DNA from: Eunapius fragilis
Lineage: Eukaryota > Porifera > Demospongiae > Spongillida > Spongillidae
DNA length: 64,000 nucleotides
NCBI GenBank assembly: GCA_963681505.1
Contig: OY811982.1
Location: 2,754,622-2,818,621, forward strand
Direction of reading: 5' to 3'
Positions 4,001 through 50,500 of the stretch are shown in pieces. The position numbers and the translations under genes are program-made. Within the stretch, counting starts at the first letter, position 1. Each line of letters opens with the position of its first letter. The notes beneath the pieces were generated by a model. That model was not told where the DNA came from, ran no database searches, and saw nothing but the letters and a program-made list of their open reading frames with translations.

Positions 4001-4129
4001 CATATCTGTGTACTCACATGTCCCCCATATCTGTGTACCCACATGTCCCCCATATCTATGTACCCACATGTCCCCCATATCTATGTACCCTCATGTCCCC
4101 CATATCTGTGTACCCACATGTCCCCCATA
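1085..4129. repeat. 25-bp minisatellite, about 122 units
   Basis: Tandem array of a 25-bp unit containing ACATGTCCCCCATATCT followed by G or A, then TGTA. Units differ mainly at that G/A site. Rarer variants have CTTATCT in place of CATATCT, or a 2-base shortening near 2951, 3452 and 3650. Variant groups recur 200 bp (8 units) apart, for example near 1711 and 1911, and near 3440 and 3640, which points to block duplication. The array lies in the intron before exon 4. The same intron in the intact copy has only about 16 units. The unit length is not a multiple of 3 and contains no stop, so all three plus frames stay open. Confidence 0.97.
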
Positions 4130-4300
4130 TGGGGAGGAGGGATTTGTAAATGTAAGGCCTTTTATTCCTCTTTGCTTCAGATTTGGCAGTGTCTCGTAGA
4201 TTCAACTTTACTCTCGACTTTACAATCAACCCTAACTACACTAACCGTTCATTTGCAGATAATGGAACGGTCAGTACATGTGAACTTGTATGTGCATGTA

Positions 4301-16088: not shown

Positions 16089-17540
16089 ATGTCATTACGA
16101 AAAAGACCAATGCAAGAGGTACTGATAATTAGGTTTGCTTGTAACATGAAACTGTACCTATGTACTATACAGCTGCTGTCACCAATACCACCAAATGTAC
16201 TGGCTTTGGGAACTGCTGCTGAGAAGGGTGATGTGGAGAAACTAAAACAGTTATTAACTCTACCCGACGTTGACATCAATGCAGTGTGCAGTAAAGTAAG
16301 GATACATGTAGATTGAGAGAGGGGGGGGGGGAGAGACAGGAGCAGAGGGGGGGGGGGGGAGGGAGAGAGAGAGAGAGGGAGAGAGAGGTTAAGAGGCAAA
16401 AAGAGACAGAGTACCATTACCATACTTCATTAATTAAAGGTTTATTAGTGTTGCTTCCATTTACTTTTGTGTTCAATGGTCTACTAATCGCTGAAACATC
16501 AACCAACTAGTGTTATATAACAGGCACTCTTCCTTCAGAGCTATCTACACTACTACCTAGCTTCTCATTTAGATTACTTCACACATACAATTTTCTGTCC
16601 TTTGAAGGACGAATTAGACACAAAATATGCTTCCAGCATAATAAGGAGGTGTTCCCTACATGTATGTGATGTCATGTTACAGTACATGAGCTTGTAGACC
16701 AATAAGGATGATAGTGTGGAAACTTAGGGGTGTATGTGAATGTGCAGTCACATGAGCTATGGAGATATAAGGTTGGTGAGACATTTATAGAATCCGTCTA
16801 GGCATATTGTGCTCTGCTACTAACAGATCTAACCCGTGCACAATGGTCACTGCACCTATATTGAAGTCATAAGTGATATGGCCCCGTGTATTATCATGCA
16901 TGAGGCAGAGTATGTGATGTTGGGAGATGCACTATCCATTTTACCTACTTCTAATTATCAGCTGTGCATCACTGCATCATCATGTCTCCTGTGTTTCAGA
17001 AATAAAATAACAACTACTACTGTCCCTCTCTGGGAATATACGTGTGCATGTATTCTCAGACTGGTAGTCTCTCTCTCTGTAGGGTAATGCAGGGCACTCA
17101 TCATACACATATACATGTAGTACATTCTCTATGTACCATTTGTAGCATTATTGTTCACTGGCAAACCCTGTATGTCCCACTCTAGTGGGAGGAAACAGCA
17201 CTGCACTTGGCTTGTCGTCATAAACAATTGAGAAGTGTTGAAGTCCTACTGGCTATGGGAGCTGATCCGAACAAAATCAACTTTGTAAGTACATACATTT
17301 TCATGCATACAAATTTATGAGATCAAGATTCAGATTCACTCAATTAGCTACTCAGTGACCATCATGCAAGTAGTGTCAGACTCATGTGCATTCTATCAGG
17401 ATTGTAGATGTGACATTGAATACTGATTGTTCTTTCAGTATGGACACACAACACTACATTATGCATGTATGGTACATGATGCTGATATTGTGAAGAAGCT
17501 CCTGGAAAACAACGTAAATGTCAACACACAGACCACAAAG
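16089..17540 (+). CDS. ROCO exons 1-4: ankyrin repeats 1-3
   Basis: Exon 2 encodes an ankyrin helix pair (ALGTAAEKGDVEKLKQLL), exon 3 WEETALHLACRHKQLRSVEV and exon 4 YGHTTLHYACMVHDADIVKK. Exons 3 and 4 are 99 and 102 nt and phase 0, one repeat per exon, the usual way ankyrin arrays grow. Acceptors are CTCTAG (17185) and TTTCAG (17438); donors are GTAAGT and GTATGT. Confidence 0.85.
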
Positions 17541-20500: not shown

Positions 20501-23500
20501 ATGTTTACTAGTGATGATACTGAATGCTCCTTGTTAGCATCATGTATGGTATTTGAAGTATGGTTTGCAAGTGCGGAATTTGAAAGGTTTTGGCAAAATA
20601 AGTTTATTCACTAGGTCCACTGTGTCAAGTTTTTGTGCAGTAACCATTGAATCATTTCTTCCAAAATTTCTTGACATTGGCCTGAATTGATGGAACTGAT
20701 TCTTTTCACCTTGCGGAATTGTAAAACCTTTCTCCTTTTTTGCAGGATGTAAGTTTGTCTTTTCATGTGTCCAAAGTTGTCTAGTGTAGGTTGTCATTGT
20801 ATTTGCTGTTGCTGGTTGTTGATGTAATGCCAGGATGTTTGAGATTAGTTAATTCTGAATAATTGTACATTATACATCGCCTATATTTAATGGTTTTAGA
20901 CAATGCTGTCATGGGGTAATGTACATCTATTGAGTGATGTTAATTTGTATTGTTGATGATACTGAATGCTTCTTGTTAGTATAATTTGCGGCATTTGAAG
21001 TATGGTTTCTGTGTACGGATTAAGAAAGGTTGTGACAAATTAGACTATTTTGATGTTTTTCGCCAAGTCCATTGTGTCATGTTTTAGTGCATGGTCAACG
21101 AAACTTTTATCATGTGATGGGATAATTTGGGTTTGCTGTCCGTGCCGTTGATACTTTTACCATTCATCATTTATTCCAAAATTCCTTAACATTGGCCTGA
21201 ATTGATGGAACTGATTCTTTTCACCTTGCGGAATTGTAAAACCTTTCTCCTTTTTTGCAGTTGGTAAGTGTGTTCTTTTCACGTGTCCAACATTGTCTAG
21301 TGTAGGTTGTCATTGTGTTTGCTGTTGCTGGTTGTTGATGAAATACCAGGATGTTTGAGATTAGTTAATTCTGAATAATTGTACATTATACATTGCCTAT
21401 ATTTAATGGGTTTTAGACAATCCTGTCATGGGGTAATGTACATGTATTGAGTGATGTTAATTTGTATTGTTGATGATACTGAATGCTTCTTGTTAGTATA
21501 ATTTGCGGGATTTGAAGTATGGTTTCTGTGTATGGAATAAGAAAGGTTGTGGCAAATTAGTTTCTTCGTTGAAGTCCATTGTGTAAAGTTTAAGTGCATG
21601 GTCAACAAAACTTTTATCATGTGATGGGATAATTTGGGTTTGCTATACGTGCCGTTAGTACTTTACCATTGCATTATTTCTTCCAAAATTGTTTGACATT
21701 GGCCTGAATTGATGGAACTGATTCTTTTCACCTTGCGGAATTTTAAAACCTTTCTCCTTTTTTGCAGTTGGTAAGTGTGTTCTTTTCACGTGTCCAAAGT
21801 TGTCTAGTGTAGGTTGTCATTGTGTTTGCTGTGGCTGGTTGTTGATGTAATGCCAGGATGTTTGAGATAGGTTATTTCTGAATAATTGTGCATTATACGT
21901 TGCCTTTATTTAATGGTTTTAGACAATACTGTCATGGGGTAATGTACATGCATTAAGTGATGTTAAAATACATTGTTGAAGATACAGAATGCTTCTTGTT
22001 AGTATCATTTGCGGCATTTGAAGTATGGTTTCTGTGTGTGGATTAAGAAAGGTTGTGGCAAATTAGACTATTTTGATTTTATTCGCTAAGTCCATTGTGT
22101 CAAGTTTTAGTGCATGGTCAATGAAACTTTTATCATGTGATGGGATACTTTGGAATTGCTTTCCGTGCCGTTAGTACTTTTAACATTTCATAATTTCTTC
22201 CATAATTTCTTGACATTGGCCTGAATTGATGGAACTGATTCTATTCACTATGCGGAATTGCAAAACCTGTCTCCTTTATTGTAGATGGTAAGTTTATCTT
22301 TTCACGTGTCCAAAGTTGTCTAGTGTAGGTTGTCATTATGTTTGCTATTGCTGGTTGTTGATGAAATACCAGTATGTTTGAGATAAGTTAATTCTGAATA
22401 ATTGTACATTATACATTGCCTATATTTAATGGTTTTAGACAATGTTGTCATGGGGTAATGTACATGTATTGAGTGATGTTAATTTGTATTGTTGATGATA
22501 CTGAATGCTTCTTGTTAGTATAATTTGAGGGATTTGAAGTATCATCTCTGTGTATGGAATAAGAAAGGTTGTGGCAAATTAGTTTATGCTCTAAGTCCAT
22601 TGTGTAAAGTTTTAGTGCATGGTCAACGAAACTTTTATCATGTGATGGGATAATTTGGGTTTGCTGTCCGTGCCGTTGATACTTATACCATTGCATCATT
22701 ACTTCCAAAATTCCTTAACATTGGCCTGAATTGATGGAACTGATTCTTTTCACCTTGCTGAATTGTAAAACCTTTCTCCATTATTGCAGTGGGTAAGTGT
22801 GTCTTTTCACGTGTCCAACGTTGTCTAGTGTAGGTTGTCATTGTGTTTGCTGTTGCTGGTTGTTGATGAAATGCCAGGATTAGTTAATTCTGAATAATTG
22901 TACATTATACTTTGCCTTTATTTAATGGTTTTAGACAATGCTGGGGTAATGTACATGTATTGAGTGATGTTAATTTGTATTGTTCATGATACCGAATGCT
23001 TCTTGTTAGTATAATTTGCGGCATTTGAAGTATGGTTTCTGTGTGTGGATTAAGAAAGGTTGTGGCAAATTAGGCTATTTTGATTTTATTCGCCAAGTCC
23101 ATTGTGTCAAGTTTTAGTGCATGGTCAATGAAACTTTTATCATGTGATGGGATACTATGGAATTGCTTTCCGTGCCGTTAGTACTTTTAACATTCCATAA
23201 TTTCTTCCAAAATTTCTTGACATTGGCCTGAATTGATGGAACTGATTCTTTTCACTATGCGGAATTGCAAAACCTGTCTCCTTTATTGCAGTTCGTAAGT
23301 TTATCTTTTCACGTGTCCAAAGTTGTGTAGTTTAGGTTGTCATTGTGTTTGCTGTTGCTGGTTGTTGATGAAATACCAGGATGTTTGAGATAAGTTAATT
23401 CTGAATAATTGTACATTATACATTGCCTATATTTAATGGTTTTAGACAATACTGTCATGGGGTAATGTACATGTATTGAGTGATGTTAAAATATATTGTT

Positions 23501-26500
23501 GAAGATACTGAATGCTTCTTGTCAGTATCTTTTGCGGCATTTGAAGTATGGTTTCTGTGTACGGATTAAGAAAGGTTGTGGCAAATTAGACTATTTTGAT
23601 GTCTTTCGCCAAGTCCATTGTGTCAAGTTTTAGTGCATGGTCAACAAAACTTTTATCATATGATGGGATAACTTGGGTTTGCTGTACGTGCCATTAGTAC
23701 TTTACCATTGCATTATTTCTTCCAAAATTGCTTGACATTGGCCTGAATTGATGGAACTGATTTTTTTCACCTTGCGGAATTGTAAAACCTTTCTCCTTTT
23801 TTGCAGTTGGTAAGTGTGTTCTTTTCACGTGTCCAACATTGTCTAGTGTAGGTTGTCATTGTGTTTGCTGTTGCTGGTTGTTGATGAAATACCAGGATGT
23901 TTGAGATTAGTTAATTCTGAATAATTGTACATTATACATTGCCTATATTTAATGGGTTTTAGACAATCCTGTCATGGGGTAATGTACATGTATTGAGTGA
24001 TGTTAATTTGTATTGTTGATGATACTGAATGCTTCTTGTTAGTATAATTTGCGGGATTTGAAGTATGGTTTCTGTGTATGGAATAAGAAAGGTTGTGGCA
24101 AATTAGTTTCTTCGTTGAAGTCCATTGTGTAAAGTTTAAGTGCATGGTCAACAAAACTTTTATCATGTGATGGGATAATTTGGGTTTGCTATACGTGCCG
24201 TTAGTACTTTACCATTGCATTATTTCTTCCAAAATTGTTTGACATTGGCCTGAATTGATGGAACTGATTCTTTTCACCTTGCGGAATTTTAAAACCTTTC
24301 TCCTTTTTTGCAGTTGGTAAGTGTGTTCTTTTCACGTGTCCAAAGTTGTCTAGTGTAGGTTGTCATTGTGTTTGCTGTGGCTGGTTGTTGATGTAATGCC
24401 AGGATGTTTGAGATAGGTTATTTCTGAATAATTGTGCATTATACGTTGCCTTTATTTAATGGTTTTAGACAATACTGTCATGGGGTAATGTACATGCATT
24501 AAGTGATGTTAAAATACATTGTTGAAGATACAGAATGCTTCTTGTTAGTATCATTTGCGGCATTTGAAGTATGGTTTCTGTGTGTGGATTAAGAAAGGTT
24601 GTGGCAAATTAGACTATTTTGATTTTATTCGCTAAGTCCATTGTGTCAAGTTTTAGTGCATGGTCAATGAAACTTTTATCATGTGATGGGATACTTTGGA
24701 ATTGCTTTCCGTGCCGTTAGTACTTTTAACATTTCATAATTTCTTCCATAATTTCTTGACATTGGCCTGAATTGATGGAACTGATTCTATTCACTATGCG
24801 GAATTGCAAAACCTGTCTCCTTTATTGTAGATGGTAAGTTTATCTTTTCACGTGTCCAAAGTTGTCTAGTGTAGGTTGTCATTATGTTTGCTATTGCTGG
24901 TTGTTGATGAAATACCAGTATGTTTGAGATAAGTTAATTCTGAATAATTGTACATTATACATTGCCTATATTTAATGGTTTTAGACAATGTTGTCATGGG
25001 GTAATGTACATGTATTGAGTGATGTTAATTTGTATTGTTGATGATACTGAATGCTTCTTGTTAGTATAATTTGAGGGATTTGAAGTATCATCTCTGTGTA
25101 TGGAATAAGAAAGGTTGTGGCAAATTAGTTTATGCTCTAAGTCCATTGTGTAAAGTTTTAGTGCATGGTCAACGAAACTTTTATCATGTGATGGGATAAT
25201 TTGGGTTTGCTGTCCGTGCCGTTGATACTTATACCATTGCATCATTACTTCCAAAATTCCTTAACATTGGCCTGAATTGATGGAACTGATTCTTTTCACC
25301 TTGCTGAATTGTAAAACCTTTCTCCATTATTGCAGTGGGTAAGTGTGTCTTTTCACGTGTCCAACGTTGTCTAGTGTAGGTTGTCATTGTGTTTGCTGTT
25401 GCTGGTTGTTGATGAAATGCCAGGATTAGTTAATTCTGAATAATTGTACATTATACTTTGCCTTTATTTAATGGTTTTAGACAATGCTGGGGTAATGTAC
25501 ATGTATTGAGTGATGTTAATTTGTATTGTTCATGATACCGAATGCTTCTTGTTAGTATAATTTGCGGCATTTGAAGTATGGTTTCTGTGTGTGGATTAAG
25601 AAAGGTTGTGGCAAATTAGGCTATTTTGATTTTATTCGCCAAGTCCATTGTGTCAAGTTTTAGTGCATGGTCAATGAAACTTTTATCATGTGATGGGATA
25701 CTATGGAATTGCTTTCCGTGCCGTTAGTACTTTTAACATTCCATAATTTCTTCCAAAATTTCTTGACATTGGCCTGAATTGATGGAACTGATTCTTTTCA
25801 CTATGCGGAATTGCAAAACCTGTCTCCTTTATTGCAGTTCGTAAGTTTATCTTTTCACGTGTCCAAAGTTGTGTAGTTTAGGTTGTCATTGTGTTTGCTG
25901 TTGCTGGTTGTTGATGAAATACCAGGATGTTTGAGATAAGTTAATTCTGAATAATTGTACATTATACATTGCCTATATTTAATGGTTTTAGACAATACTG
26001 TCATGGGGTAATGTACATGTATTGAGTGATGTTAAAATATATTGTTGAAGATACTGAATGCTTCTTGTCAGTATCTTTTGCGGCATTTGAAGTATGGTTT
26101 CTGTGTACGGATTAAGAAAGGTTGTGGCAAATTAGACTATTTTGATGTCTTTCGCCAAGTCCATTGTGTCAAGTTTTAGTGCATGGTCAACAAAACTTTT
26201 ATCATATGATGGGATAACTTGGGTTTGCTGTACGTGCCATTAGTACTTTACCATTGCATTATTTCTTCCAAAATTGCTTGACATTGGCCTGAATTGATGG
26301 AACTGATTTTTTTCACCTTGCGGAATTTTAAAACCTTTCTCCTTTTTTGCAGGATGTAAGTTTGTCTTTTCACGTGTCCAACATTGTCTAGTGTAGGTTG
26401 TCATTGTGTTTGCTGTGGCTGGTTGTTGATGTAATGCCAGGATGTTTGAGATAGGTTATTTCTGAATAATTGTACATTATACGTTGCCTTTATTTAATGG

Positions 26501-29500
26501 TTTTAGACAATTCAGTCATGGGGTAATGTACATGTATTAAGTGATGTTAAAATACATTGTTGAAGATACTGAATGCTTCTTGTTAGTATCATTTGCGGCA
26601 TTTGAAGTATGGTTTCTGTGTGTGGATTAAGAAAGGTTGTGGCAAATTAGACTATTTTGATTTTATACGCTAAGTCCATTGTGTCAAGTTTTAGTGATGG
26701 TCAATGAAACTTTTATCATGTGATGGGATACTTTGGAATTGCTTTCCGTGCCGTTAGTACTTTTAACATTCCATAATTTTGTTCCAAAATTTCTTGACAT
26801 TGGCCTGAATTGTTGGAACTGATTCTTTTCACTATGCGGAATTGCAAAACCTGTCTCCGTTATTGCAGTTCGTAAGTTTATCTTTTCACGTGTCCAAAGT
26901 TGTCTAGTTTAGGTTGTCATTGTGTTTGGTATTGCTGGTTGTTGATGAAATACCAGTATGTTTGAGATAAGTTAATTCTGAATAATTGTACAATATACAT
27001 TGCCTATATTTAATGGTTTTAGACAATGCTGTCATGGGGTAATGTACATGTATTGAGTGATGTTAATTTGTATTGTTGATGATACTGAATGCTTCTTGTT
27101 AGTATAATTTGCGGGATTTGAAGTATCGTCTCTGTGTATGGAATATGAAAGGTTGTGGCAAATTAGTTTATTCACTAAGTCCATTGTGTAAAGTTTTAGT
27201 GCATGGTCAACGAAACTTTTATCATGTGATGGGATAATTTGGGTTTGCTGTCCGTGCTGTTGATACTTTTACTATTGCATCATTTCTTCCAAAATTCCTT
27301 AACATTGGCCTGAATTGATGGAACTGATTCTTTTCACCTTGCGGAATTGTAAAACCTTTCTCCTTTTTTGCAGTGGGTAAGTGTGTCTTTTCACGTGTCC
27401 AACATTGTCTAGTGTAGGTTGTCATTGTGTTTGCTGTTGCTGGTTGTTGATGAAATGCCAGGATGTTTGAGATTAGTTAATTCTGAATAATTGTACATTA
27501 TACTTTGCCTTTATTTAATGGTTTTAGACAATGCTGGGGTAATGTACATGTAGTGAGTGATGTTAATTTGTATTGTTGATGATACTGAATGCTTCTTGTT
27601 AGTATAATTTGCGGCATTTGAAGTATCGTCTCTGTGTATGGAATAAGAAAGGTTGTGGCAAATTAGTTTATTCGCTAAGTCCATTGTGTAAAGTTTTAGT
27701 GCATGGTCAACGAAACTTTTATCATTTGATGGGATAATTTGGGTTTGCTGTCCGTGCCGTTGATACTTTTACCATTGCATCATTTCTTCCAAAATTCCTT
27801 AACATTGGCCTGAATTGATGGAACTGATTCTTTTCACCTTGCGGAATTGTACGACCTTTCTCCTTTTTTGCAGTGGGTAAGTGTGTCTTTTCACGTGTCC
27901 AGCATTGTCTAGTGTAGGTTGTCATTGTGTTTGCTGTTGCTGGTTGTTGATGAAATGCCAGGATGTTTGAGATTAGTTAATTCTGAATAATTGTACCTTA
28001 TACTTTGCCTTTATTTAATGGTTATAGACAATGCTGGGGTAATGTACATGTATTGAGTGATGTTAATTTGTATTGTTGATGATACTGAATGCTTCTTGTT
28101 AGTATAGTTTGCGGCATTTGAAGTATCGTCTCTGTGTATGGAATAAGAAAGGTTGTGGCAAATTAGTTTATTCGCTAAGTCCATTGTGTAAAGTTTTAGT
28201 GCATGGTCAACGAAACTTTTATCATGTGATGGGATAATTTGGGTTTGCTGTCCGTGCCGTTAGTACTTTTACCACTGCATATTTTCTTCTACATTTACTT
28301 GACATTGGCCTGAATTGATGGATCTGATTCTTTTCACCTTGCGGAATTGTAATTAATTTCTCCTTTTTTGCAGTCGGTAAGTGTGTCTTTTCATGTGTCC
28401 AACATTGTCTATTGTAGGTTGTCATTGTGTTTGCTGTTGCTGGTTGTTGATGAAATGCCAGGATGTTTGGGATTAGTTAATTTTGAATCATTGTACATTA
28501 TACTTTGCCTTTATTTAATGGTTTTAGACAATGCTGGGGTAATGTACATGTATTGAGTGATGTTAATTTGTATTGTTGATGATACTGAATGCTTCTCGTT
28601 AGTATAATTTGCGGGATTTGAAGTATCGTCTCTGTGTATGGAATAAGATAGGTTGTGGCAAATTAGTTTATTCGCTAAGTCCATTGTGTAAAGTTTTAGT
28701 GCGGGGGTCATTGAAACTTTTGTCATGTGATGGGATAATTTGGGTTTGCTATCCGTGCCGTTGATACTTTTACCATTGCATCATTTCTTCCAAAATTCCT
28801 TGACATTGGCCTGAATTGATGGATCTGATTCTTTCACCTTGCGGAATTGTAAAACCTTTCTCCTTGTTTGCAGTCGGTAAGTGTGTCTTTTCACGTGTAC
28901 AACATTGTCTAGTGTAGGTTGTCATTGTGTTTGCTGTTGCTGGTTGTTATTGAAATGCCTGGATGTTTGAGATTAGTTAATTCTGAATAATTGTACATTA
29001 TACATAGCCTTTATTTAATGGTTTTAGACAATGCTGTCATGCAGTAATGTACTTGTATTGAGTGATGTTAATTTGTATTTTTGATGATACTGAATGCATC
29101 TTGTTAGTATAATATGCGGCATTTGAAGTATGGTTTCTGTATGTGGATTAAGAAAGGTTGTGGCAAATTAGACTATTTTGATTTTATTCGCCAAATCCAT
29201 TGTGTCAAGTTTTAGTGCATGGTCAATGAAACGTTTATCATGTGATGGGATACTTTGGAATTGCTTTCCGTGCCATTAGTACTTTTTACATTCCATAATT
29301 TCTTCCAAAATTTCTTGGTATTGGCCTGAATTGATGGAACTGATTCTTTTCACTATGCGGAATTGCAAAACCTGTCTCCTTTATTGCAGTTCGTAAGTTT
29401 TTCTTTTCACGTGTCCAAAGTTGTCTAGTGTAGGTTGTCATTGTGTTTGCTGTTGCTGGTTGTTGATGAAATACCAGGATGTTTGAGTTAAGTTAATTCT

Positions 29501-32500
29501 GAATAATTGTACATTATACATCGCCTATATTTAATGGTTTTAGACAATGCTGTCATGGGGTAATGTACATGTATTTAGTAATGTTAATTTGTATTGTTGA
29601 TGATACTGAATGCTTCTTGTTAGTATAATTTGCGGGATTTGAAGTATCGTCTCTGTGTATGGAATAAGAAAGGTTGTGGCAAATTAGTTTATTCGCTAAG
29701 TCCATTGTGTAAAGTTTTAGTGCATGGTCATTGAAACTTTTGTCATGTGATGGGATAATTTGGGTTTGCTATCCGTGCCGTTGATACTTTTACCATTGCA
29801 TCATTTCTTCCAAAATTCCTTGACATTGGCCTGAATTGATGGAACTGATTCTTTTCACCTTGCGGAATTGTAAAACCTTTCTCCTTTTTTGCAGTGGGTA
29901 AGTGTGTCTTTTCACGTGTCCAACATTGTCTAGTGTAGGTTGTCATTGTGTTTGCTGTTGCTGGTTGTTGATGAAATGCCAGGATGTTTGAGATTAGTTA
30001 ATTCTGAATATTTGTACATTATACTTTGCCTTTATTTAATGGTTTTATACAATGCTGTCATGGGGTAATGTACTTGTATTGAGTGATGTTACTTTGTGTT
30101 GTTGATGATACTGAATGCTTCTTGTTAGTATAATTTGCGGCATTTGAAGTAGGGTTTCTGTGTACGGATTAAGAAAGGTTGTGGCAAATTAGACTATTTT
30201 GATTTTATTCGCTAAGTCCATTGTGTCAAGTTTTAGTGCATGGTCAACGAGACTTTTATCATGTGATGGGATAATTTGGGTTTGCTGTACGTGCCGTTAG
30301 TACTTTAACCATTGAATCATTTCTTCCAAAATTGCTTGACATTGGCCTGAATTGATGGAACTGATTCTTTTCACCTTGCGGAATTGTAAAACCTTTCTCC
30401 TTTTTTGCAGTCGGTAAGTTTGTCTTTTCACGTGTCCAACATTGTCTGGTGTAGGTTGTCATTGTGTTTGCTGTTGCTGGTTGTTGATGTAATGCCAGGA
30501 TGTTTGAGATGGGTTAATTCTGAATAATTGTACATTATACGTTGCCTTTATTTAATGGTTTTAGACAATACTGTCATGGGGTAATGTACATGTATTGAGT
30601 GATGTTAAAATTTATTGTTGAAGATACTGAATGCTTCTTGTTAGTATAATTTGCGGCATTTGAAGTATGGTTTCTGTGTACGGATGAAGAAAGGATGTGG
30701 CAAATTAGACTATTTTGATGTTTTTCGCCAAGTCCATTGTGTCAAGTTTTAGTGCTTAGTCAACGAAACTTTTATCATGTGATGGGATAATTTGGGTTTG
30801 CTGTCCGTGACATAAGTACTTTTACCATTCCGAATTTCTTCCAAAAATTACTACACATTGTCCTGAATTGATGGAACTGATTCTTTTCACCTTGCGGAAT
30901 TGTAAAAACGTTCTCCTTTTATGCAGTTTGTAAGTTTATCTTTTCACGTTTCCTGAGTTGTCTAGTGTAGTTTGTCATTGTGTTTGCTGTTGCTCGTTGT
31001 TGATGTAATGCCAGGATGTTTGAGATTAGTTAGTTCTGAATAATTGTATATTACACGTTGCCTTTATATAATGGTTTTAGACAATGCTATCATGGGGTAA
31101 TGTACATGTATTGAGTGATGTTAATTTGTATTGTTGATGATACTGAATGCTTCTTGTTAGTATAATTTGCGGGATATGAAGAATTGTCTCTGTGTATGGA
31201 ATAAGAAAAGGTTGTGGCAAATTAGTTCATGCTCTAAGTCCATTGTGTAAAGTTTTAGTGCATGGTCATTGAACCTTTTGTCATGTGATGGGATAATTTG
31301 GGTTTGCTATCCGTGCCGTTGATACTTTTACCATTGCATAATTTCTTCCAAAATTCCTTGACATTGGCCTGAATTGGTGGAACTGATTCTTTTCACCTTG
31401 CGGAATTGCATAACCTGTCTTTTTTATTGCAGTTCGTAAGTTCATCTTTTTACGTGTCCAAAGTTGTCTCGTGTAGGTTGTCACTGTGTTTGCTGTTGCT
31501 GGTTGTTGATGAAATACCAGTGTATTTGAGATAAGTTAATTCTGAATAATTGTACATTATACATTGCCTATATTTAATGGTTTTAGACAATGCTGTCATG
31601 GGGTAATGTACGTGTATTGAGTGATGTTAATTTGTATTGTTGATGATACTGAATGCTTCTTGTTAGTATTATTTTTACCGGATTTGAAGTATCGTCCCTA
31701 TGTATGGAATAAGAATGGTTGTGGCAAATTAGTTTATGCGCTAAGTCCATTGTGCAAAGTTTTAGTGCATGGTCAACAAAACTTTTATCATGTGATGGGA
31801 TAATTTGGGTTTGCTGTCCGTGCCGTTAGTACTTTTACCACTGCATATTTTCTTCTACATTTACTTGACATTGGCCTGAATTGATGGATCTGATTCTTTT
31901 CACCTTGCGGAATTGTAATAAATTTCTCCTTTTTTGCAGTCGGTAAGTGTGTCTTTTCACGTGTCCAATATTGTCTATTGTAGGTTGTCATTGTGTTTGC
32001 TGTTGCTGGTTGTTGATGAAATGCCAGGATGTTTGAGATTAGTTAATTCTGAATAATTGTACATTATACTTTGCCTTTATTTAATGGTTTTAGACAATGC
32101 TGGGGTAATAATGTACATGTATTGAGTGATGTTAATTTGTATTGTTGATGATACTGAATGCTTCTTGTTAGTATAATTTGCGGCATTTGAAGTATGGTTT
32201 CTGTGTGTGGATTAAGAAAGGTTGTGGCAAATTAGACTATTTTGATTTTATTCGCTAAGTCCATTGTGTCAAGTTTTAGTGCATGGTCAATGAAACTTTT
32301 ATCATGTGATGGGATACTTTGGAATTGCTTTCCGTGCAGTTAGTACTTTTAACATTACATAATTTCTTCCAAAATTTCTTGACATTGGCCTGAATTGATG
32401 GAACTGATTCGTTTCACTATGTGGAATTGCAAAACCTGTCTCCTTTATTGCAGTTCGTAAGTTTATCTTTTCACGTGTCCAAAGTTGTCTAGTGTATGTT

Positions 32501-38500: not shown

Positions 38501-41500
38501 GTGGATTAAGAAAGGTTGTGGCAAATTAGACTATTTTGATTTTATTTGCTAAGTCCATTGTGTCAAGTTTTAGTCCACGGTCAATGAAACTTTTATCATG
38601 TGATGGGATACTTTGGAATTGCTTTCCGTGCCGTTAGTACTTTTAACATTCCATAATTTCTTCCAAAATTTCTTGACATTGGCCTGAATTGATGGAACTG
38701 ATTCTTTTCACCTTGCGGAATTGTATAAACTTTCTCCTTTTTTGCAGTATGTAAGTTTATCTTTTCACGTGTCCTAAGTTGGCTAGTGTAGTTTGTCATT
38801 GTGTTTGCTGTTCCTGGTTGTTGATGAAATGCCAGGATGTTTGAGATTAGTTAGTTCTGAATAATTGTATATCTATATTTTATGGTTTTAGACAATACTG
38901 TCATGGGGTAATGTACATGTATTGAGTGATGTTAAGGTATACTGTTGACGATACTGAATGCTTCTTGTTAGTATAATTTGCGGGATTTGAAGTATCGTCT
39001 CTATGTATGGAATAAGAAAGGTTGTGGCAAATTAGTTTATTCGCTAAGTCCATTGTGTAAAGTTTTAGTGCATGGTCATTGAAACTTTTGTCATGTGATG
39101 GGATAATTTGGGTTTGCTATCCGTGCCGTTGATACTTTTACCATTGCATCATTTCTTCCAAAATTCCTTGACATTGGCCTGAATTGATGGAACTGATTCT
39201 TTTCACCTTGCGGAATTGTAAAACCTTTCTCCTTTTTTGCAGTTGGTAAGTGTGTCTTTTCACGTGTCCAACATTGTCTAGTGTAGGTTGAGTGATGTTA
39301 ATATGTATTGTTGATGATACTGAATGCTTCTTGTTAGTATAATTTGTGGCATTTGAAGTATGGTTTCTGTGTGCGGATTAAGAAAGGTTGTGGCAAATTA
39401 GACTGTTTTGATGTTTTTCGCCAAGTCCATTGTGTCAAGTTTTAGTGCATGGTCAACGAAACTTTTATCATGTGATGGGATAATTTGGGTTTGCTGTACA
39501 TGCCGTTAGTACTTTTACCATTGAATCATTTCTTCCAAAATTGCTTGACATTGGCCTGAATTGATGGAACTGATTCTTTTCACCTTGCGGAATTGTAAAA
39601 CCTTTATCCTTTTTTGCAGGATGTAAGTTTGTCTTTTCACGTGTCCAACATTGTCTAGTGTAGGTTGTCATTGTGTTTGCTGTTGCTGGTTGTTGATGAA
39701 ATGCCAGGATGTTTGAGATAAGTTAATTCTGAATAATTGTACATTATTCATTGCCTATATTTAATGGTTTTAGACAATGCTGTCATGGGGTAATGTACAT
39801 GTATTGAGTGATGTTAATTTGTATTGTTGATGATACTGAATGCTTCTTGTTAGCATAATTTGCGGGATTTGAAGTATCGTCTCTGTGTATGGAATAAGAA
39901 AGGTTGTGGCAAATTAGTTTATTTGCCAAGTCCATTGTGTAAAGTTTTATTGCATGGTCATTGAAATTTTTGTCATGTGATGGGATAATTTGGGTTTGCT
40001 ATCCGTGCCGTTGATACTTTTACCATTGCATAATTTCTTCCAAAATTGCTTGATATTGGCCTGAATTGATGGAACTGATTCTTTTCACCTTGCGGAATTG
40101 TAAAACCTTTCTCCTTTTTTGCAGGATGTAAGTTTGTCTTTTCACGTGTCCAACATTGTCTAGTGTAGGTTGTCATTGTGTTTGCTGTTGCTGTTTGTTG
40201 ATGTAATGCCAGGATGTTTGAGATAGATTGTTTCTGAATAATTGTGCATTATACGTTGCCTATATTTAATGGTTTTAGACAATGCTGTCATGGGGTAATG
40301 TACATGTATTGAGTGATGTTAATTTGTATTGTTGATATACTGAATGCTTCTTGTTAGTATAATTTGCGGGATTTGAAGTATCGTCTCTGTGTATGGAATA
40401 AGAAAGGTTGTGGCAAATTAGTTTATTCGCTAAGTCCATTGTGTAAAGTTTTAGTGCATGGTCATTGAAACTTTTGTCATGTGATGGGATAATTTGGGTT
40501 TGCTATCCGTGCTGTTGATACTTTTACCATTGCATCATTTCTTCCAAAATTCCTTGACATTGGCCTGAATTGATGGATCTGATTCTTTCACCTTGCGGAA
40601 TTGTAAAACCTTTCTCCTTTTTTGCAGTTGGTAAGTGTGTCTTTTCACGTGTACAACATTGTCTAGTGTAGGTTGTCATTGTGTTTGCTGATGCTGGTTG
40701 TTAATAAAATGCCAGGATGTTTGAGATTAGTTATTTCTGAATAATTGTACATTATACATAGCCTTTATTTAATGGTTTTAGACAATGCTGTCATGGGGTA
40801 ATGTACTTGTATTGAGTGATGTTAATTTGTATTGTTGATGATACTGAATGCATCTTGTTAGTATAATTTGCGGCATTTGAAGTATGGTTTCTGTGTACGG
40901 ATTAAGAAAGGTTGTGGCAAATTAGACTGTTTTGATGTTTTTCGCCAAGTCCATTGTGTAAAGTTTTAGTGCATGGTCAACGAAACTTTTATCATGTGAT
41001 GGGATAATTTGGGTTTGCTGTACGTGCCGTTAGCACTTTTACCATTGCATCATTTCTTCCAAAATTGCTTGACATTGGCCTGAATTGATGGAACTGATTC
41101 TTTCACCTTGCGGAATTGTAAAACCTTTCTCCTTTTTTGCAGTTGGTAAGTTTGTCTATTCACGTGTCCAACATTGTCTAGTGTAGGTTGTCATTGTGTT
41201 TGCTGTTGCTGGTTGTTGATGTAATGCCAGGATGTTTGAGATAGGTTATTTCTGAATAATTGTACATTTTACGTTGCCTTTATTTAATGGTTTTAGACAA
41301 TACTGTCATGGGGTAATGTATGTCGATTTCCGCATGAATTATTAATTTCAATTATGTACCGCGCACGTGATTTAATTATAGTGTAATTCATTGCTGGGTG
41401 ATGCGTAAGCGTGCGGCGACGTCTCTGTGAATCCGTTTAGCATCGAGCTCCTTCTGTAATATACTACATGGTCCTTCGAGCCGAGGATATCTAGAAGATG

Positions 41501-44500
41501 GCTGAACAGGTTGGAGCTAAACAGAAACGAGTTCGCGCTGGACACAGAGCGTCCGCGTCGCGGCTAATCGCCCAAGCTAAGTCGACCGACGAATCGCCGG
41601 AATTGAACGCACCGATGATGAACAGAATAGTTCAAACATTAAAAGAGAAGTTAGATATTATTCGAAAGCTCGACGAAGAGATCCTTGAGGCTATTTCCGA
41701 AGAAGATGAGATCAAGGACGAAATAGAATAAGCGGACATCTACCGCGAGAAAATAGACATGGCTATAATATCCATGCAAATCCGGATAGCAGAATTGGAA
41801 CGAGCCGAAACGCTGTCCTTGAGAAGTCACGAAACGCGACAGCAGGAACCTTCAACACAAGCGTCGCAGCAACGAGCTGATGCGAGAGATGATGTTCGCG
41901 CGCCGTCTCAAAAAGACCACGAATGAACTCCAAGTCCTGAGCCAGCCAGAAGTATCACAGGAGCGCCGAACGTTCGTTCAACGCCTGTGCCAGAATCCGG
42001 AAGAGGGCCTAGGGTGAAGCTCCCGAAGGTAGTGCTCAAACGGTTTGATGGTCGCCCGACAGAGTGGGCCACGTTCTGGGACATGTTCCAGTCCTCAGTG
42101 TACACAATAACCCGGATCTTTCAGATATCGACCGATTCAACTACTTACACTCGTTGCTTGATGGCGTTGCAGCACACTCCATCTCCGGTCTATCGCTAAC
42201 TTCTGTCAACTACGCAGAAGCGATTGCTGTTCTCCAGAAGCGGTTTGGTAATAAGCAACAAGTCATCAATAAGCACATGGATGCACTCCTTGATCTTGAG
42301 GCAGTTTCATCAACGCGGGACCTGAAGAGGCTTCGTCATCTCTATGACCAAACCGAAGGACACATCCGAAGCTTGAAATCACTAGGCGTACCCTCGGAGT
42401 CGTACGGAAGCCTGTTGGCACCTATCCTGATGAAACGACTGCCCCACGAGCTTTGCATTATCATCAGTAAGGAAGTTAGCGCGGATTCCTGGAATGTGGA
42501 TGAGATAATGGAGATTGCAGGGAAGGAGATAGAAGCACGAGAGCGAGCAAGTATGAACATAGAGGCATCCACAACACAAATGAAGAAGCCTAGCAGTAAT
42601 CGTGAGCGAGCAACAGCATATGTCTTAGTCGCAACCAGTCCTACCTCAATGCACTGCTACTTCTGTGGAGAACAACACCTAGCCTCATCCTGTACAAAGG
42701 TGACAAATCCAGATGCCTGTTTGCAAGTACTACTGAAGGCTGGGAGGTGCTTTGTGTGTCTCAAGAAAGGACACATCTCAAGAGAATGCAGATCGTCACT
42801 CAAATGTGCAAGTTGTAATGGTAGACATCACTCTACTATCTGCAATAGCTCCAGAAGGACTAATCCTCCTACAGCAAGTGCTTCACCACAGCAAGCTCAA
42901 GCATCCACGTCTACTGTAACACAGCAGCCAAGAAGCAACACTTCTACCATGTCAATGTATGTTGACATGCGTACCCCTGTATTACTTCAAACAGCTGCTA
43001 CCATGGTGTATTGCAAGAACAGACCAGCTGATCCAGTGAAGGCTAGGTTGATCCTTGACAGTGGAAGCCAAAAATCTTACATATCTGCTGAGCTAAGGGA
43101 TATGCTGAACTTGCCACCGGAGCAGACTGTAGCTGTGTCCATTAAGACATTTGGGTCAGAGGCAGAGAAGACACAGATGTGTGATGTTGTCAAGATTCGA
43201 CTGGCAACAAGATTGGGACCAGACCTTGAACTCACATCATATGTGGTACCCTTCATCTGCGAACCACTATCTGGACAGCCAACAGACATTGCAGTAGAAC
43301 ATTTCCAGTACTTGTCTGGATTGGACCTGGCAGACCCTAATGACTCTTCTGAGAACCTACCAATCAGCATTCTGATTGGTGCAGACTATTACTGGAAAGC
43401 AGTAACGGGAAGAATCATTCAAGGAAGAGTTGGACCTACTGCTGTTCAGACTAGATTTGGATGGGTGCTTTCTGGACCTACTCCTGGACTTCTTGGATCT
43501 GAAAAAACCAATGCCCTCTGTTCTCACATTCTAAATGTGAGATGCTCTCCACGAGAAGACTGCGCCGATCTTGAGAAGAAACTGCAAGCTTTCTGGGAAC
43601 TAGACAGCTTAGGGATAAGGGAGGATGAAGACTCTGTGTATGGCAGATTCACTCGAAGCATCACATTACAGAATGGTCGCTATTGTGTTCAACTCCCATG
43701 GAAGGAGCCACATCCTCTACTTCCTGATAATTTTGAACTTATTAAGGCAAGACTCTTCAACCTCTTGAAACGACTCCAGCGGACTCCAGACATCCTGGAC
43801 CAATATGATGCAGTCATACGAGACCAGATGAAGAGTGGCATTGTCGAGATGGTAGCAGTACCAGGTGATGGAGCTGTTGGAACAACCCACTATCTTCCAC
43901 ATCATGCAGTTATTCGAGAGGACAAGCAAACCACCAAGTTGCGAATCGTGTTTGATGCCTCAGCAAGAAGTAATGGACCATCCCTTAATGACTGTTTATA
44001 TGCTGGTCCCACATTCGGGCAGAACATTTTGGACATCTTGCTGCGATTCCGTCTTTACCATGTTGCAGTGACCGCTGACATAGAGAAGGCCTTCCTAATG
44101 GTGTCAGTAGCTGAAGAGGACCGTGATGCATTGCGCTTTCTGTGGTTGGAAGACATCAAGAGTCATTTACCAAGGCTTATAACTCTGAGATTTGCCCGAG
44201 TGATGTTTGGTGTGTCATCTAGTCCCTTCCTTCTCAATGCCACGTTGCAACACCACATGGAGCACTACAGAAACAGTGACCCATCCTTTGTGAACAAGTT
44301 TGTTCGCTCAATCTATGTTGATGACCTGACATCTGGATCAGACACTGAAGAGGAGGCTCTGCTCTTGGCGAAGAAGGCACGAGAACGATTGGCAGAATCA
44401 GGCTTCAACCTCCGGAAGTTTGTGACTAACTCACCATCACTTCAGAGACATCTTTTGTCTGCAGATCTTCTACATCATCGATCGACAGTTACCGATGATC

Positions 44501-47500
44501 CAGTCACATGTGATGATGAGTCATATACCAAGAACACCCTAGGTGACAGGCTCCAGGCTCCAGAATGTGTAAAGGTGTTGGGTGTCAAATGGAAACCCTC
44601 AGAGGATGAACTGGTGTTTGACCTCAGTGCCCTCTTACACGACACCGCTGCTATCAAGCCTACCAAGAGGAACATTATTGGACTCTCTGCAAGGATTTAT
44701 GACCCTTTAGGCATTCTTTCTCCTGTCACTGTCCAATTCAAAATGCTCTTTCAGGATATTTGTGCGGCTAAGCTGAACTGGGATGAAATGCTGTCGGGGG
44801 AGCTGTTGGCAAAATGGAATTGTCTGCTATCAAGTCTGGAGAAATCCCAACCACTCTGCATCCCACGATGCTACTTCAACAATTTCACGAGTTCTACTTC
44901 TTGCACTTGCTCATTGGTCGGCTTCTGTGATGCATCCCAGAAGGCATATGCTGCTGTGGTCTTCCTGAGAATGAGGATGGCAGATCAATGTGTCACACGT
45001 CTTGTAGCCTCCAAGACAAGAGTTGCACCTCTCTGTACTCAGACTATTCCTCGTTTGGAAATGTTGTCTGCACTCTTGTTAGCTCGCCTCCTATCAAGCA
45101 TCACTCAAGCATTGGAACCTGAACAGGTCTTGGATCGTCCAGTTTGCTACACAGATTCAAAGATCACATTGTATTGGATCAGAAGGTTTGATAAGGAGTG
45201 GAAGCAGTTTGTCCAAAACCGTGTAAATGAAGGGCGAAGCTTAGTACCTATTGACTCTTGGTATCACTGCCCTGGTGAGCAGAACCCAGCAGACCTACCA
45301 TCAAGAGGAGCTCATATGTCGCAGCTCATTGACAACACACTATGGATCAATGGACCCTCGTGGATAAGTGACCCTGGGTTTGAACCACAGTCTCCTGACC
45401 TTCATTCTGTCCCAGATGAATGCTTCAAGGAAATCCGAGTAAAGGACCACCCTGCATTCAGTTTCCTCACTCAAAGTACCAGTCAAGTTGAAGCTATTCT
45501 CAACTGTGAGCATTTCAGTACTCTAGGTCGACTGCTAAAGGTGACTGCATACGTGATGAAGTTTGTTTCAGTTCTGAAGACCAAGATCAAGGGTACTTCA
45601 TTGACAGCTGAAGATATTGAAGGTGCAGAGATGTATTGGGTTCGGGTGTCACAGAAAATGCTTACTCAGGATAAACAGTTTGGACTTTGGCAGCAACAGC
45701 TTGGGTTGTATTGCAGTGCAGATGGCATATGGAGATGTGGAGGAAGATTACAACATGCCGATCTACCTGAGCCTGCAAGGCACCCGATACTACTTCACAA
45801 GGGGCATCACTTCACTCAGTTGATTGTAAGTGATTGTCATGCGAGAGTGATGCATAGTGGGGTGAAGGATACACTCACTCAGGGTAGTTAAGGCTGCCTC
45901 ACAGGAAAAATCATGTTAACATGTTGTCAACATTCATGTTCGTAATTACATCATTATGACGTCGTGTGATTCACTACGTTTCGGTCTACGTTTAGCGCAA
46001 GGACACTTTTTTAGTATCGTATTCATACATGTTACGACGTTACAGTGATCTAGAGCAAACCTTGCACGAAATGCAAACAAACGCACAAAGGAGTAACGAA
46101 AAAAGCGTGCAGCTGCCAAGCAATACAAATTTGGCGGGTGGTTATATTTTAATAACTACTGTACTTTGTATGGGTATATCGGAGATTCAAAACGCGGGGA
46201 TGAAAACGCAGCTATCAGGTACATTTATTCAGCTAGGCAAGCTCACCTAGGGTGCTAGTTATTCACCGCGACTGGATGCTTCGATAACTGCATAGGGTAT
46301 CGAAGATATATCACATTTCGAACATGTCGTCGGCCATTTTGACCCTTGTTAACGTTTGTTGTGACAACACCAAGCAAAGAATATCCTGCATCCAGTCGAT
46401 ATAGTGTGTGTGAGCATAGGGAGATTGTTTGTAGCCAATTAGTTTATTAAAAAATATACCGCAGAATCCCCGCCTACAGCCGTATTTGTTTACATAGCCG
46501 TTTTCCAAACAGTTCCGTACGATAGGTGTGTTAAAGAGCATACAACATAGCCATTAGAAGTAGCAGTATTTAACACACATATTCACATCAAGTTTCAAGC
46601 AAGTAGATGGTCCTTGCGTGAAATATAACTTTTTGGTACAAGCCGCCATTTTATATGACGTAAAATTATTTGGTGGCAGCCTTAACTACCCTGAGCACAC
46701 AACTACGGTCAAAGTATTGGGTTGTGAAGGGTAGACAGTTTGTCAGAAGGCTGTTGAATGGATGTATGGTGTGTAAACGTTTCAGCTCCCGTCCTCTCAG
46801 TGGTCCAACTGCACCGCCGTTACCTGATTTCAGGGTGAGAGTATCACCACCATTCAGCTGTGCTGGCGTGGACTATGCAGGACCCTTGTACCTGAAAAAT
46901 GGTGATAAAGTTTGGATCTGCCTGTTCACATGCTGTGTTGTTTGGGCTGTACATTTGGAACTGGTTCCAGACTTGACTGCTATTGCATTTGTTCGTTGCC
47001 TGAAACATTTCTCAGCAAGACGTGGTATCCCTCAAACGTTGTGTTCAGACAACAGCAAGACATTTAGATCTGCCAATAAGATTATCTCTTCAATACTGAA
47101 CATGCCGGAGACACAACAGCACTTCAGAGATGTACGCATACAGTGGACATTCATATTGGAGAAGGCACCTTGGTGGGGGGGATTTTATGAGAGAATGGTT
47201 CAGGCAATGAAGAGATGTTTGAGAAAGGTGATTGGCAAGGCAAGGATGACATACGATGAACTGCATACAGCATTGGTTGAGGTGGAGGCCATACTCAACT
47301 CTCGTCCTATCTCATACATATCTTCAGAAGATATGGATGAACCCCTTACACCTTCTCATCTATTGTTGGGTCACCGCTTGTGTACCTTACCTTGTTCAGT
47401 AACAAGGTCCAAGGATCCTGAGTCTGGAGGAAGTGAGGATCTGAGTCGACGGATGCAACATCTGAACCAGATTCTAGAGCACTTCTGGAAGCGGTGGAGG

Positions 47501-50500
47501 TCTGAATATTTGATGGGACTTAGGGAGAGCCACGCCCACTCACAGAAGCCAAGGAATGGACATCGTACTCTTGCACTGGGGGAGGTGGTGTTGATCTACG
47601 ATGCAGACCAGCCTAGGACTCAGTGGCGGATAGGAAGAGTTGAAGGGTTGCTGGAAGGATCAGATGGGGCTGTAAGAGGAGCATCTCTTCGTGTGCAGTC
47701 AGGCAAGAAGACTATATTACTCAATCGTCCCATCCAACACCTCTACCCACTGGAGACGAGTATTGCTGCTGATGCAAACACTTGTGCAACTGATCAAGCT
47801 TCTGTGGTCAGGGATGAAGAGGATACTGAACTAAGTCACACTGCTGCATCTGATGCGGAAGAGCCACCTGGAGGAGGCCGGAACGAGTCTCGCCCACAAC
47901 GAACTGCTGCTCAAGTTGCACGCTATCGATTAAAGGAGTTGGCTGGGGACCCGTATTGACTTGCTGTCAGCCAGTCAAGGGGGAGTGTCGAACATTTCCG
48001 CATGAATTATTAATTTCAATTATGTACCGCGCACGTGATTTCATTATAGTGTAATTCATTGCTGGGTGATGCGTAAGCGTGCGGCGACGTCTCTGTGAAT
48101 CCGTTTAGCATCGAGCTCCTTCTGTAATATACTACAATGTACATGTATTGAGTGATGTTAAAATATATTGTTGAAGATACTGAATGCTTCTTGTTAGTAT
48201 CATTTGCGGCATTTGAAGTATGGTTTCCGTGTGTGGATTAAGAAAGGTTGTGGCAAATTAGACTATTTTGGTTTTATTCGCTAATTCCATTGTGTCAAGT
48301 TTTAGTGCATAGTCAATGAAACTTGTATCATGTGATGGGATACTTTGGAATTGCTTTCCGTGCCGTTAGTACTTTTAACATTCCATAATTTCTTCCAAAA
48401 TTTCTTGACATTGGCCTGAATTGATGGAACTGATTCTTTTCACTATGCGGAATTGCAAATCCTGTCTCCTTTATTGCAGTTCGTAAGTTTATCTTTTCAC
48501 GTGTCCAAAGTTGTCTAGTGTAGGTTGTCATTGTGTTTGCTGTTGCTGGTTGTGGATGTAATGCCAGGATGTTTGAGATAGATTATTTCTGAATAATTGT
48601 ACGTAATACATTGTCTTTATGTAATGCATTTTGACATTGTTATGGGGTAATGGACATGTATAGAGTGATCTTGTTTTTGCAGTTGGTATTGTAATAGGTT
48701 ATTTCTAAATCAATTAAAGTGTCCGAGTAGCACTTCCTTTGTTTAGTGAGTTTTGACTGTGCTATCATAGTGTAATATATATTTTGATGTGTATACTGTG
48801 TGGCATAGTGCATTTGGAATAAATTTTACTTTGGTTAAATATCCTAAAGATAAGGTTATTTTGAGTTTTTAGGGTATGTGTTTTATGTGTATTTAATGTC
48901 ATTATTTCAGGATAGTTTAGGTTTTTGTGCACGCAATTCTTTTAACATTGTATTATTTTTCATATGCTTTAGTTATGTGATTTACCTTAATGATTTAAGG
49001 GATTCAAAGCGATGAAAAGTGATTCGTTTTCTTATACACTCATTTTTGCAATGCTGTAACTTGATCAAAACTGTGAGTACAGTTATGTGTTGTGTATTAA
49101 ACCTGAGGCTGTAATCCCTGGATACCATGTATGGTATGCATGTTGATGGGGAAATGAAGGGTACAACATAAAATGGATTTATAAAATAATTTGCATAAGC
49201 CCTGTATCAAGAAGGTTGATAACCAACCCTTATTATTTAGCCATCCCATTTACAATTTTCTAAACTTCAATGAAACAGCTACAAATTAACAAGGTATACC
49301 CGTACAGAAGTAATAAAGTTTAAAGTGGTTGTTGCAATGTTTCTGAGTACCACACCTCCATGAGCATACTAACAGTGCTCTTTGGCCTTACATCCCCCCA
49401 AGCTGGGCACAAAACTATGCCTCAATGGAATGTCATTGTTTAGCCAATACTATTTTGATATCAGGAGAAATAATGTTGTACCTAATTTTGAGTCCTTCTA
49501 TTCATCCCTGAGTTCTATTTTTAAGCTTAAGGTCTTTACTTATATCTTGTTTTGATCAAGAGAAATATTTTCATGTCAATTTGTTTTGTTCATGATATCT
49601 ATATCAGTTTGCTGGCACTACTGCTCTCCATATTTCATGCCATTTTGGAGATCACAAGATTGTCCAGCTATTGCTGTCGACACCGGGTATCAAGGTGGAC
49701 ATTAGAAATACATCAAATCAGTCTCCTGTGATGCTTGCCACAGATTATGATGTTTTAGCATTGCATCAGAATTACATGAAAAGTTGTGACAATTTTCCAA
49801 TCCATTCGGTTTGCAAACTAGTTTTATGCGGCAACTCACAAGCAGGAAAAAGCACTTTAACACAGGTATTGTTATTTTCTTCTGTCCTTTGCTCTTGTTA
49901 ATTGAAATACATGTAATGATTTGGTTTTATTATATAGAGCATTTTGAAATATTTGAGACCTCCAGTGGATAAGGTGAGTGATATGTGATTTATAGAACAC
50001 GTGTATATGGCTGATTTCTTTTGTTGACTACACCATTTGGCGTTGTGGTTCAGAAACTAGGTGGTCCGGAAGTGTTTTTTACATTGCAGATAACTAAGTG
50101 CAATAACAATAAATACATATATGATCAAAACCAGCCTATAATGAGACTCTGCCCTAATGTACTGCTAGAGCCAGATCACAATAAACCCAGTGGTGGTAAG
50201 AAGACCTGCTTCCTCGCAGGCACATGATAGCACCACGCAGTATGGCAAAAGACAGACGGCATCTCAGCCAGCCCATAATGAGGGAATACTTGTTTTTCAG
50301 ATAGTAGGTCGGCTGACCATTTGTAAAAAGTGGTGGCTTCTCTCCCCATTGCCCCCGAGATGGAATAAACAAGGGGTATGAAGACACCATGTTTAACATC
50401 CCGAATGCGTTGTCCATATTCCCTTTTCTTGGCTTGCTCATGGCTGCGAAAGAGAGCAGAAAGAGGTTTTGAAAATGTAGCTAGATGTATTAGGGTGAAA

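Follow-up and report, generated by a model that had tools for sequence, protein, structure and literature searches.

Putative one-codon exons arrayed within an intron of ankyrin-Roc genes in the sponge Eunapius fragilis

Why should a single intron hold dozens of tandem copies of a splice acceptor and a splice donor that stand exactly one codon apart? The question is raised by a 64,000-nucleotide stretch of the genome of the sponge Eunapius fragilis (GenBank assembly GCA_963681505.1, contig OY811982.1, positions 2,754,622 to 2,818,621, forward strand; "the window" below), in which the pattern YAG-NNN-GTAAG, hereafter the module, occurs exactly 32 times on the + strand between 20743 and 48477, always inside intron 4 of a gene for an ankyrin-repeat and Roc-domain protein, and just once more, on the - strand at 12491. 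The modules are probably real, alternatively used one-codon exons, by which an expanded, immune-like family of receptors would vary residues of an ankyrin hairpin loop. We favour such diversifying coding microexons because the splice signals are constrained and the codon between them outruns the intron DNA, and this in two array lineages of related genes, whereas splicing decoys, ratchet sites and neutral satellites each fail at least one of these observations. The initial annotation had read the modules as either one-codon microexons or ratchet splice sites. Its count of 32 in gene sense within one intron is confirmed, as are its triplet counts (TTG 7, TTC 7, TGG 5, TCG 5, GAT 4, ATG 2, TTT 1 and TAT 1) and the lack of stop codons among them, which extends to the 200 modules considered below.

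The module array and its host gene

The modules sit in tandem monomers of about 490-517 nt, arranged as follows.

17541..49607, + strand: intron 4, 32 kb, which harbours the module array
20746..48482, + strand: 32 putative one-codon exons of 3 nt each, with a T-rich tract and YAG before and GTAAGT after
First bases of exons 1-16 of 32, + strand: 20746, 21261, 21768, 22285, 22790, 23292, 23807, 24314, 24831, 25336, 25838, 26353, 26869, 27374, 27874, 28374
First bases of exons 17-32 of 32, + strand: 28874, 29390, 29895, 30411, 30927, 31433, 31940, 32454, 38232, 38748, 39243, 39620, 40125, 40628, 41143, 48480
20556..32936, + strand: main array block of tandem monomers, with a 2546-nt five-monomer higher-order repeat; its first monomer is truncated and its last is cut by an insertion
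38216..41323, + strand: second array block
48136..48672, + strand: third array block, followed by a degenerate fragment with CAG-TTG-GTATTG at about 48680
20131..20555, + strand: degenerate edge monomer without a module; the same copy is present in the sister array described below
19238..19520, + strand: leftmost, very degenerate monomer, with AAG-AAT-GCAAGC at the module position (by eye)

The host gene has eight exons and 840 codons on the + strand. Its exon limits are a prediction read from sequence, which is supported by the conservation of exons and splice sites in a sister gene, and they agree with the earlier description of exons 4 and 5 as both phase 0 and separated by a 32-kb intron.

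16089-16118, 16173-16295, 17186-17284 and 17439-17540, + strand: exons 1-4, ankyrin repeats, each phase 0, predicted limits
17540, + strand: end of exon 4, reading ...VNTQTTK and then gtatgt
49608-49865, + strand: exon 5, phase 0, starting FAGTTALH..., an ankyrin repeat and the start of Roc
49938-49973, + strand: exon 6
51628-53197, + strand: exon 7, Roc, weakly COR-like
54208-54512, + strand: exon 8, Death-like by eye only, without a Pfam match

In the host protein the ankyrin repeats and the Roc domain exceed the curated Pfam cut-offs, and COR-A scores 19.5 bits, under its cut-off of 35.3. A protein search returned one top match that is 99.8% identical to the product of the sister gene, and the best named relatives belong to the freshwater sponge Ephydatia muelleri (the top one with 37% identity over 84%). 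Within its own genome the ankyrin-Roc family yielded 106 protein-search matches, many of them on C1, C2 and C12; the figure is a minimum, and it counts two second matches of the C12 genes as well as a few frames containing stops. Judging from its architecture and number, this family of about 100 loci looks like an expanded innate-immune receptor family.

The ankyrin exons 3-5 of the window gene, like the ankyrin exons read in the paralogue P16b (see below), are in phase 0 and begin at the hairpin, which in exons 3, 4 and 5 precedes the helices of the repeat. Alignment to designed ankyrin proteins places the exon 4-5 junction in an inter-repeat loop. Hairpin positions of designed ankyrin proteins bind ligands. 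Each of exons 3, 4 and 5 starts with a different codon in the sister and the window gene (TTG/TGG, TTT/TAT and CTT/TTT, respectively), and across exons 2-5 the two genes differ by 23.5 nonsynonymous and 3.5 synonymous changes, a pN/pS of 1.98 that rests on small numbers and for which no significance was computed; for exon 7 the value is 0.92.

Site rates in the window and sister arrays

The window is part of a tandem duplication in the 219-Mb genome. About 48 kb upstream of the window gene lies the sister gene, with 94% protein identity, whose corresponding intron also holds an array of this monomer. Since most flanking pieces of the two arrays are also about 90-97% alike, the array predates the duplication; monomers of the sister array differ among themselves by 12.6% on average. 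We name the arrays A1 (sister, 26 modules) and A2 (window, 32 modules), both on C12, and P16a, P16b and P16c, those of three paralogues on C16.

Thirty-two copies of a founder module amount to a single event, and the mere presence of the module is therefore weak evidence; many other sites of the window-type monomer are equally invariant. What goes beyond chance is the site-specific rate pattern and its recurrence in other arrays. The 32 window modules were selected by motif; sampling by whole-monomer similarity alone gave 59 window and sister copies spanning the module position, of which 57 read YAG-NNN-GTAA (56 GTAAG, one GTAAC) and two lack the module. The invariance of YAG and GTAAG first reported thus holds in the motif-picked 32 and breaks down in those two copies and in the one with GTAAC, and the upstream CTGAT, likewise reported as conserved, is indeed retained in 52 of 56 copies from the two arrays. 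The 3-nt length is kept in the same 57 of 59 copies, and in 34 P16b and 29 P16a copies found by similarity.

Excluding the two degenerate module-less copies left 57, and collapsing four exact duplicates left 53 distinct rows for the tree, from which IQ-TREE site rates were obtained over 504 positions (the alignment gap of one copy was moved by hand, and the outcome is identical without that change). The AG and GTAAG together form the slowest seven-site template (rank 1 of 494 placements, 57 copies), the triplet is the fastest three-site block (rank 1 of 502), and the contrast between slow and fast also ranks first; the triplet sites have rates of 4.9, 7.5 and 7.5 against a median of 0.67. Since the motif was chosen after viewing the window array, the sister array is the fairer test, and taken alone it gives rank 1 for the contrast, rank 3 for the slow sites and rank 2 for the triplet. 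The comparison of monomer copies that the initial annotation had proposed therefore does not give the outcome that it had named as refuting, since AG and GTAAG are more conserved than their neighbours.

The same pattern is seen without a tree. Pairwise differences per site are 0.005 at AG and GTAAG, 0.552 at the triplet and 0.110 in the rest, and among the 274 pairs closer than 0.08 the triplet differs at 0.489 versus 0.061 for the rest. The triplet takes 11 codons, where 3-mers that do not overlap it average 4.2 and reach 10 at most, and its heterozygosity of 0.861 ranks 1 of 474. When the 12 nt on either side are identical, 37 pairs differ in the triplet versus at most 11 elsewhere, and the triplet has the most differing pairs for all identical flanks of 8 to 20 nt.

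Two other explanations bear on these rates. If the arrays were a neutral intronic satellite, the module would be an accident of the founder monomer kept by shared descent, which the initial annotation had offered as its null. That A1 and A2 are of one ancestry, with many monomer sites as invariant as the module, and that the C16 arrays may go back to the same remote origin, would suit it. Nevertheless, among about 500 placements the sites specified in advance come out slowest and fastest, with ranks of 3, 2 and 1 when the sister array is taken alone and of 1 throughout in P16b, and the rates are site-specific and the location tied to genes (according to searches limited in sensitivity and in the matches listed), so that shared descent alone explains the modules poorly and we hold it to be very improbable. 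Alternatively, the AG/GT pairs might act as decoys or regulators, which bind splicing factors and time or repress the removal of the long intron without any codon reaching the mRNA. Such a role accounts for constraint on splice signals with no protein effect needed, but leaves unexplained why the triplet is the fastest block, why the spacing is exactly 3 nt in very different monomers and why stop codons are absent; we consider it improbable.

Where else such modules occur was examined by several searches. Allowing at most one mismatch, the window-type module context has 56 matches genome-wide, all within the two C12 arrays and all on the + strand, and this search found no third array of the window monomer. 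A search of the genome DNA with that monomer returned, beyond the window, only a 78-nt piece, although this search was insensitive, missing the sister array and much of its own array; the lone piece, 94% identical, lies at G000:C1:21909116-21909193. The bare pattern YAGNNNGTAAG has 14255 matches genome-wide versus 11697 for a reversed control. Chance occurrence as the source of the array was set aside, as the strict pattern TTTTNCAGNNNGTAAGT concentrates in the C12 arrays (35 of 50 matches), with 15 matches elsewhere, single or as distant pairs; five of these 15 outlying places (two on C7, two on C14 and C12:2874070) showed no similarity to the host protein. For TTGYAGNNNGTAAGT, with 143 matches, no further dense cluster was seen among the matches listed (100 of 143, to C14). 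In these limited searches the satellite was thus not common outside genes or in antisense, a distribution that had been named in advance as counting against used exons; antisense copies were seen at the edge of P16a alone.

Arrays in paralogous genes and their codons

For the five closest paralogues beyond the two C12 genes, 10-20 kb upstream of each was examined. Three of them, on C16 and with about 60% identity, have an array upstream of their exon 5. P16a and P16b, with periods of about 417 and 432, lie upstream of the homologous exon 5, and every similarity-aligned copy (29/29 and 34/34, respectively) has the module with no difference in AG or GTAAG. P16c shows one module in the first 20 kb, and pattern and DNA searches located its array farther upstream, at C16:1320012-1368884, where 52 of 56 similarity-listed monomers contain a module match and five further modules fall outside the listed monomers; the P16c modules come from a pattern allowing at most 3 mismatches, which biases their conservation upwards. 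No array was found in the 10 kb upstream of the two more distant genes, C12:8363311 and C1:16850008, and in the first of these exon 5 was not found. Arrays are therefore present in five of the seven genes examined, with every counted module on the strand of its gene. For A1, A2 and P16b the exons that flank the array on either side were located, and in P16b the end of exon 4 and the start of exon 5 are in phase 0, as in the window gene.

C16-type monomers are 67-82% alike across arrays, and every match listed in the pattern and DNA searches for them lies on C16 (the 100 listed of 122, all 87 and all 86, respectively). Inverted copies stand at the edge of P16a, namely one C16-type monomer (G000:C16:708955-709297, left edge) and one short piece. 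The rate signature is stronger in P16b than in the window: its triplet sites have rates of 51, 51 and 3.9 versus a median of 0.46, and the slow, triplet and contrast ranks are all 1. In P16a, whose copies are largely recent, the triplet and the contrast both rank first. Constraint over the 60 nt preceding the AG is clear in P16b only.

Similarity between the window monomer and the C16 monomers is faint. Permissive blastn aligns the window and P16b monomers at E 0.004, and shuffled sequences reach the similarity seen upstream of the module 8 times in 500 for P16b and 71 times in 500 for P16a, whereas downstream of the module there is no signal between the window and C16 monomers (148 and 215 of 500 shuffles, respectively). 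The best matches of a window profile are at E 0.37 in P16a and 1.3 in P16b, and a C16 monomer model finds nothing in the window at E 10.

The five arrays give 200 counted modules (26 in A1, 32 in A2, 49 in P16a, 36 in P16b and 57 in P16c), with 198 GTAAG, one GTAAC and one GTAAA as donors. Their triplets comprise 26 codons for 19 amino acids and zero stops, where 18 stops are expected if positions are shuffled within arrays of these related copies, and 109 of the 200 are one base away from TAG. In P16a, P16b and P16c the triplets GAG (20), AAG (5) and CAG (3) place a second AG against GTAAG, thereby forming an overlapping, zero-length acceptor-donor pair in 28 of 200 modules.

Such pairs, together with the repeated placing of an acceptor beside a donor in introns of about 18 to 32 kb, would suit ratchet (recursive) splicing, with the triplet as a neutral leftover. 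Yet in a ratchet site AG is directly followed by GT and no bases remain, whereas here 3 nt separate the tract-bearing AG from the GT and every step via the first AG would add a codon to the mRNA; ratcheting also gives no reason for a fixed 3 nt, and a neutral leftover should not outrun intron sites. We regard it as highly unlikely. Of the two readings first proposed, the ratchet is accordingly the one without support, and the one-codon exon is the one supported by the slow AG and GTAAG, the fast triplet, the module on C16 with its rate signature (complete in P16b, partial in P16a), the lack of stops and the gene-strand orientation.

If the modules are exons, might all of them be included constitutively? 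Splicing every codon in order would yield a linker that varies in length with copy number, at about 26 to 57 residues. All sites look equally strong, none of the 200 modules encodes a stop, and 40 P16a modules read in order give an alanine-rich, helix-like string. Against this, the window array read in order is strongly hydrophobic, a run of F, L, W and S within an ankyrin domain, some 27-58 successive splices of 3-nt exons would be needed per transcript, and there is no clear reason for a linker residue to outpace the intron. Constitutive inclusion therefore seems unlikely.

Possible use of the codons and related systems

As alternatively used exons, the monomers would each represent a phase-0 unit made of an intron end, one codon and an intron start. 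Unequal exchange would multiply this unit, each copy adding a selectable codon between exons 4 and 5 with the frame intact. Exon 4 would splice to the AG of one monomer, a use that we infer from the constraint observed on AG and donor; the codon, joined to exon 4 with a fresh GTAAGT, would then splice to exon 5 or to another monomer. Because 3 nt are too small for both splice-site complexes at once, stepwise splicing would be the natural route for such an exon. The mature receptor would gain one or a few variable residues in the inter-repeat loop, beside further residues that vary on the presumed binding face. Selection would retain the splice signals and favour new codons, which would make triplets change faster than the surrounding intron, and the arrays would belong to at least five genes of the ankyrin-Roc family of about 100 loci. 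The observations are those of anatomy and evolution, and it is from them that we infer the entry of codons into mRNA, their number and the binding by the protein. A more tentative idea, possible though rather doubtful, is an RNA-level receptor repertoire, in which stepwise splicing strings one or several array codons into the ankyrin hairpin loop of at least five genes, much like the variable loop of an antibody.

Dscam genes have tandem exons of which one copy enters each transcript, often by docking/selector pairing. The arrays resemble them in being tandem and homologous with diverged coding content, as putative exons. One candidate for docking/selector pairing was a 12-nt complement within the 3' flank, which beat 50 simple shuffles (maximum 11) but was rejected, since 9 of 72 other windows reach 12 and the complement is present in just 23 of the 57 copies. 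The possibility that the exon begins at this AG and runs on for longer was likewise set aside by reading, as some copies differ by 1 nt in length immediately 3' of GTAAG, which would break any longer frame.

Several observations weigh against the modules being used exons, or against the strength of the case. The two module-less copies represent a single degenerate edge monomer shared by the window and sister arrays, the donors of other edge fragments are weak (GTATTG and GCAAGC), and four of 56 P16c monomers lack a match to the module context. In P16a splice-site constraint is present and weaker (slow rank 18 of 409), heterozygosity ranks 5 of 411 and distinct codons 3 of 411, and its 55 close pairs show no triplet excess (0.024 versus 0.019). 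With identical flanks of 25 nt the window-type triplet is no longer extreme (4 differing pairs versus up to 7 elsewhere), and exchange among monomers inflates tree-based rates at shuffled sites. The stop-absence test on distinct codons, which gives P 0.008 per array, is not significant per lineage (P 0.12) or overall (P 0.17), and the pN/pS of exons 2-5 has the caveat given above. An extra residue is not required, because the direct join of exons 4 and 5 already makes the ankyrin loop two residues longer than that of designed ankyrin proteins, and no docking/selector complementarity enforcing single-copy choice was found beyond background. Finally, going by the faint monomer similarity, the window and C16 monomers may share a remote ancestor, in which case they would be one old lineage and not independent origins. 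If there was one remote array, however, the module and its spacing were kept while the remaining monomer changed almost beyond recognition, and the case for function is not weakened.

In the accessible parts of the literature, single elements of this system are already known. Micro-exon 8 of Drosophila hth is a 3-nt microexon, and 3-bp exons of troponin T and NCAM are named in the same paper (PMC7392893); these share with the modules a one-codon, frame-keeping exon between larger exons, but as described there they are single and of proven inclusion, whereas here there are 26 to 57 tandem putative copies with a hypervariable codon and presumed inclusion. Schistosome micro-exon genes, in the part of the account available, are similar in their small symmetrical exons, few-residue variation, fast evolution and host-facing role, yet there the coding region consists mostly of small exons, which are not described as one-codon tandem copies in one intron (PMC4350168). 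Brown-algal ROCO genes, mentioned alongside Dscam exon arrays, are ROC-COR receptor candidates with tandem LRR exons, alternative splicing and selection on the binding face; in the available text each exon is a whole repeat or domain part, unlike the single codon in an ankyrin domain seen here (PMC11378527). Recursive splicing and RS-exons likewise form a donor right after the acceptor and proceed stepwise, but RS-sites, in the sections at hand, leave nothing or compete with a longer exon, whereas here a putative exon is fixed at 3 nt and hypervariable (PMC6224609). Since exons this small are difficult to map and frequently absent from annotation, according to the portions available (PMC8831610, PMC8042270), arrays of this kind may have escaped notice elsewhere. 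Among the papers listed by searches of the open-access literature (in one case 10 of 3004; subscription papers and preprints outside it were not covered), single 3-nt microexons and tandem exon arrays were found, but none describes an array of one-codon exons. If true, exon-array diversification would here be reduced to its smallest possible unit, one codon in many frame-neutral copies, in immune-like receptors of an early-branching animal, and the system would test the splicing of 3-nt exons at scale.

Two insertions, both outside the module system, interrupt the window array.

32934..38215, + strand: LTR-type (long terminal repeat) insertion, with 300-nt direct repeats (97%) and a reverse-transcriptase frame
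41326..48136, + strand: Pao-like LTR retrotransposon, with 143-nt repeats (99%) and a 1280-aa open frame

The first splits a monomer just upstream of the T-tract, with the result that its AG retains the tract and loses the branch region; the sister array has no break like that made by the Pao-like element. Elsewhere in the window, a 25-nt minisatellite occupies 1087-4130 (about 122 copies) and 56793-57203, the latter within a stretch that repeats the former.

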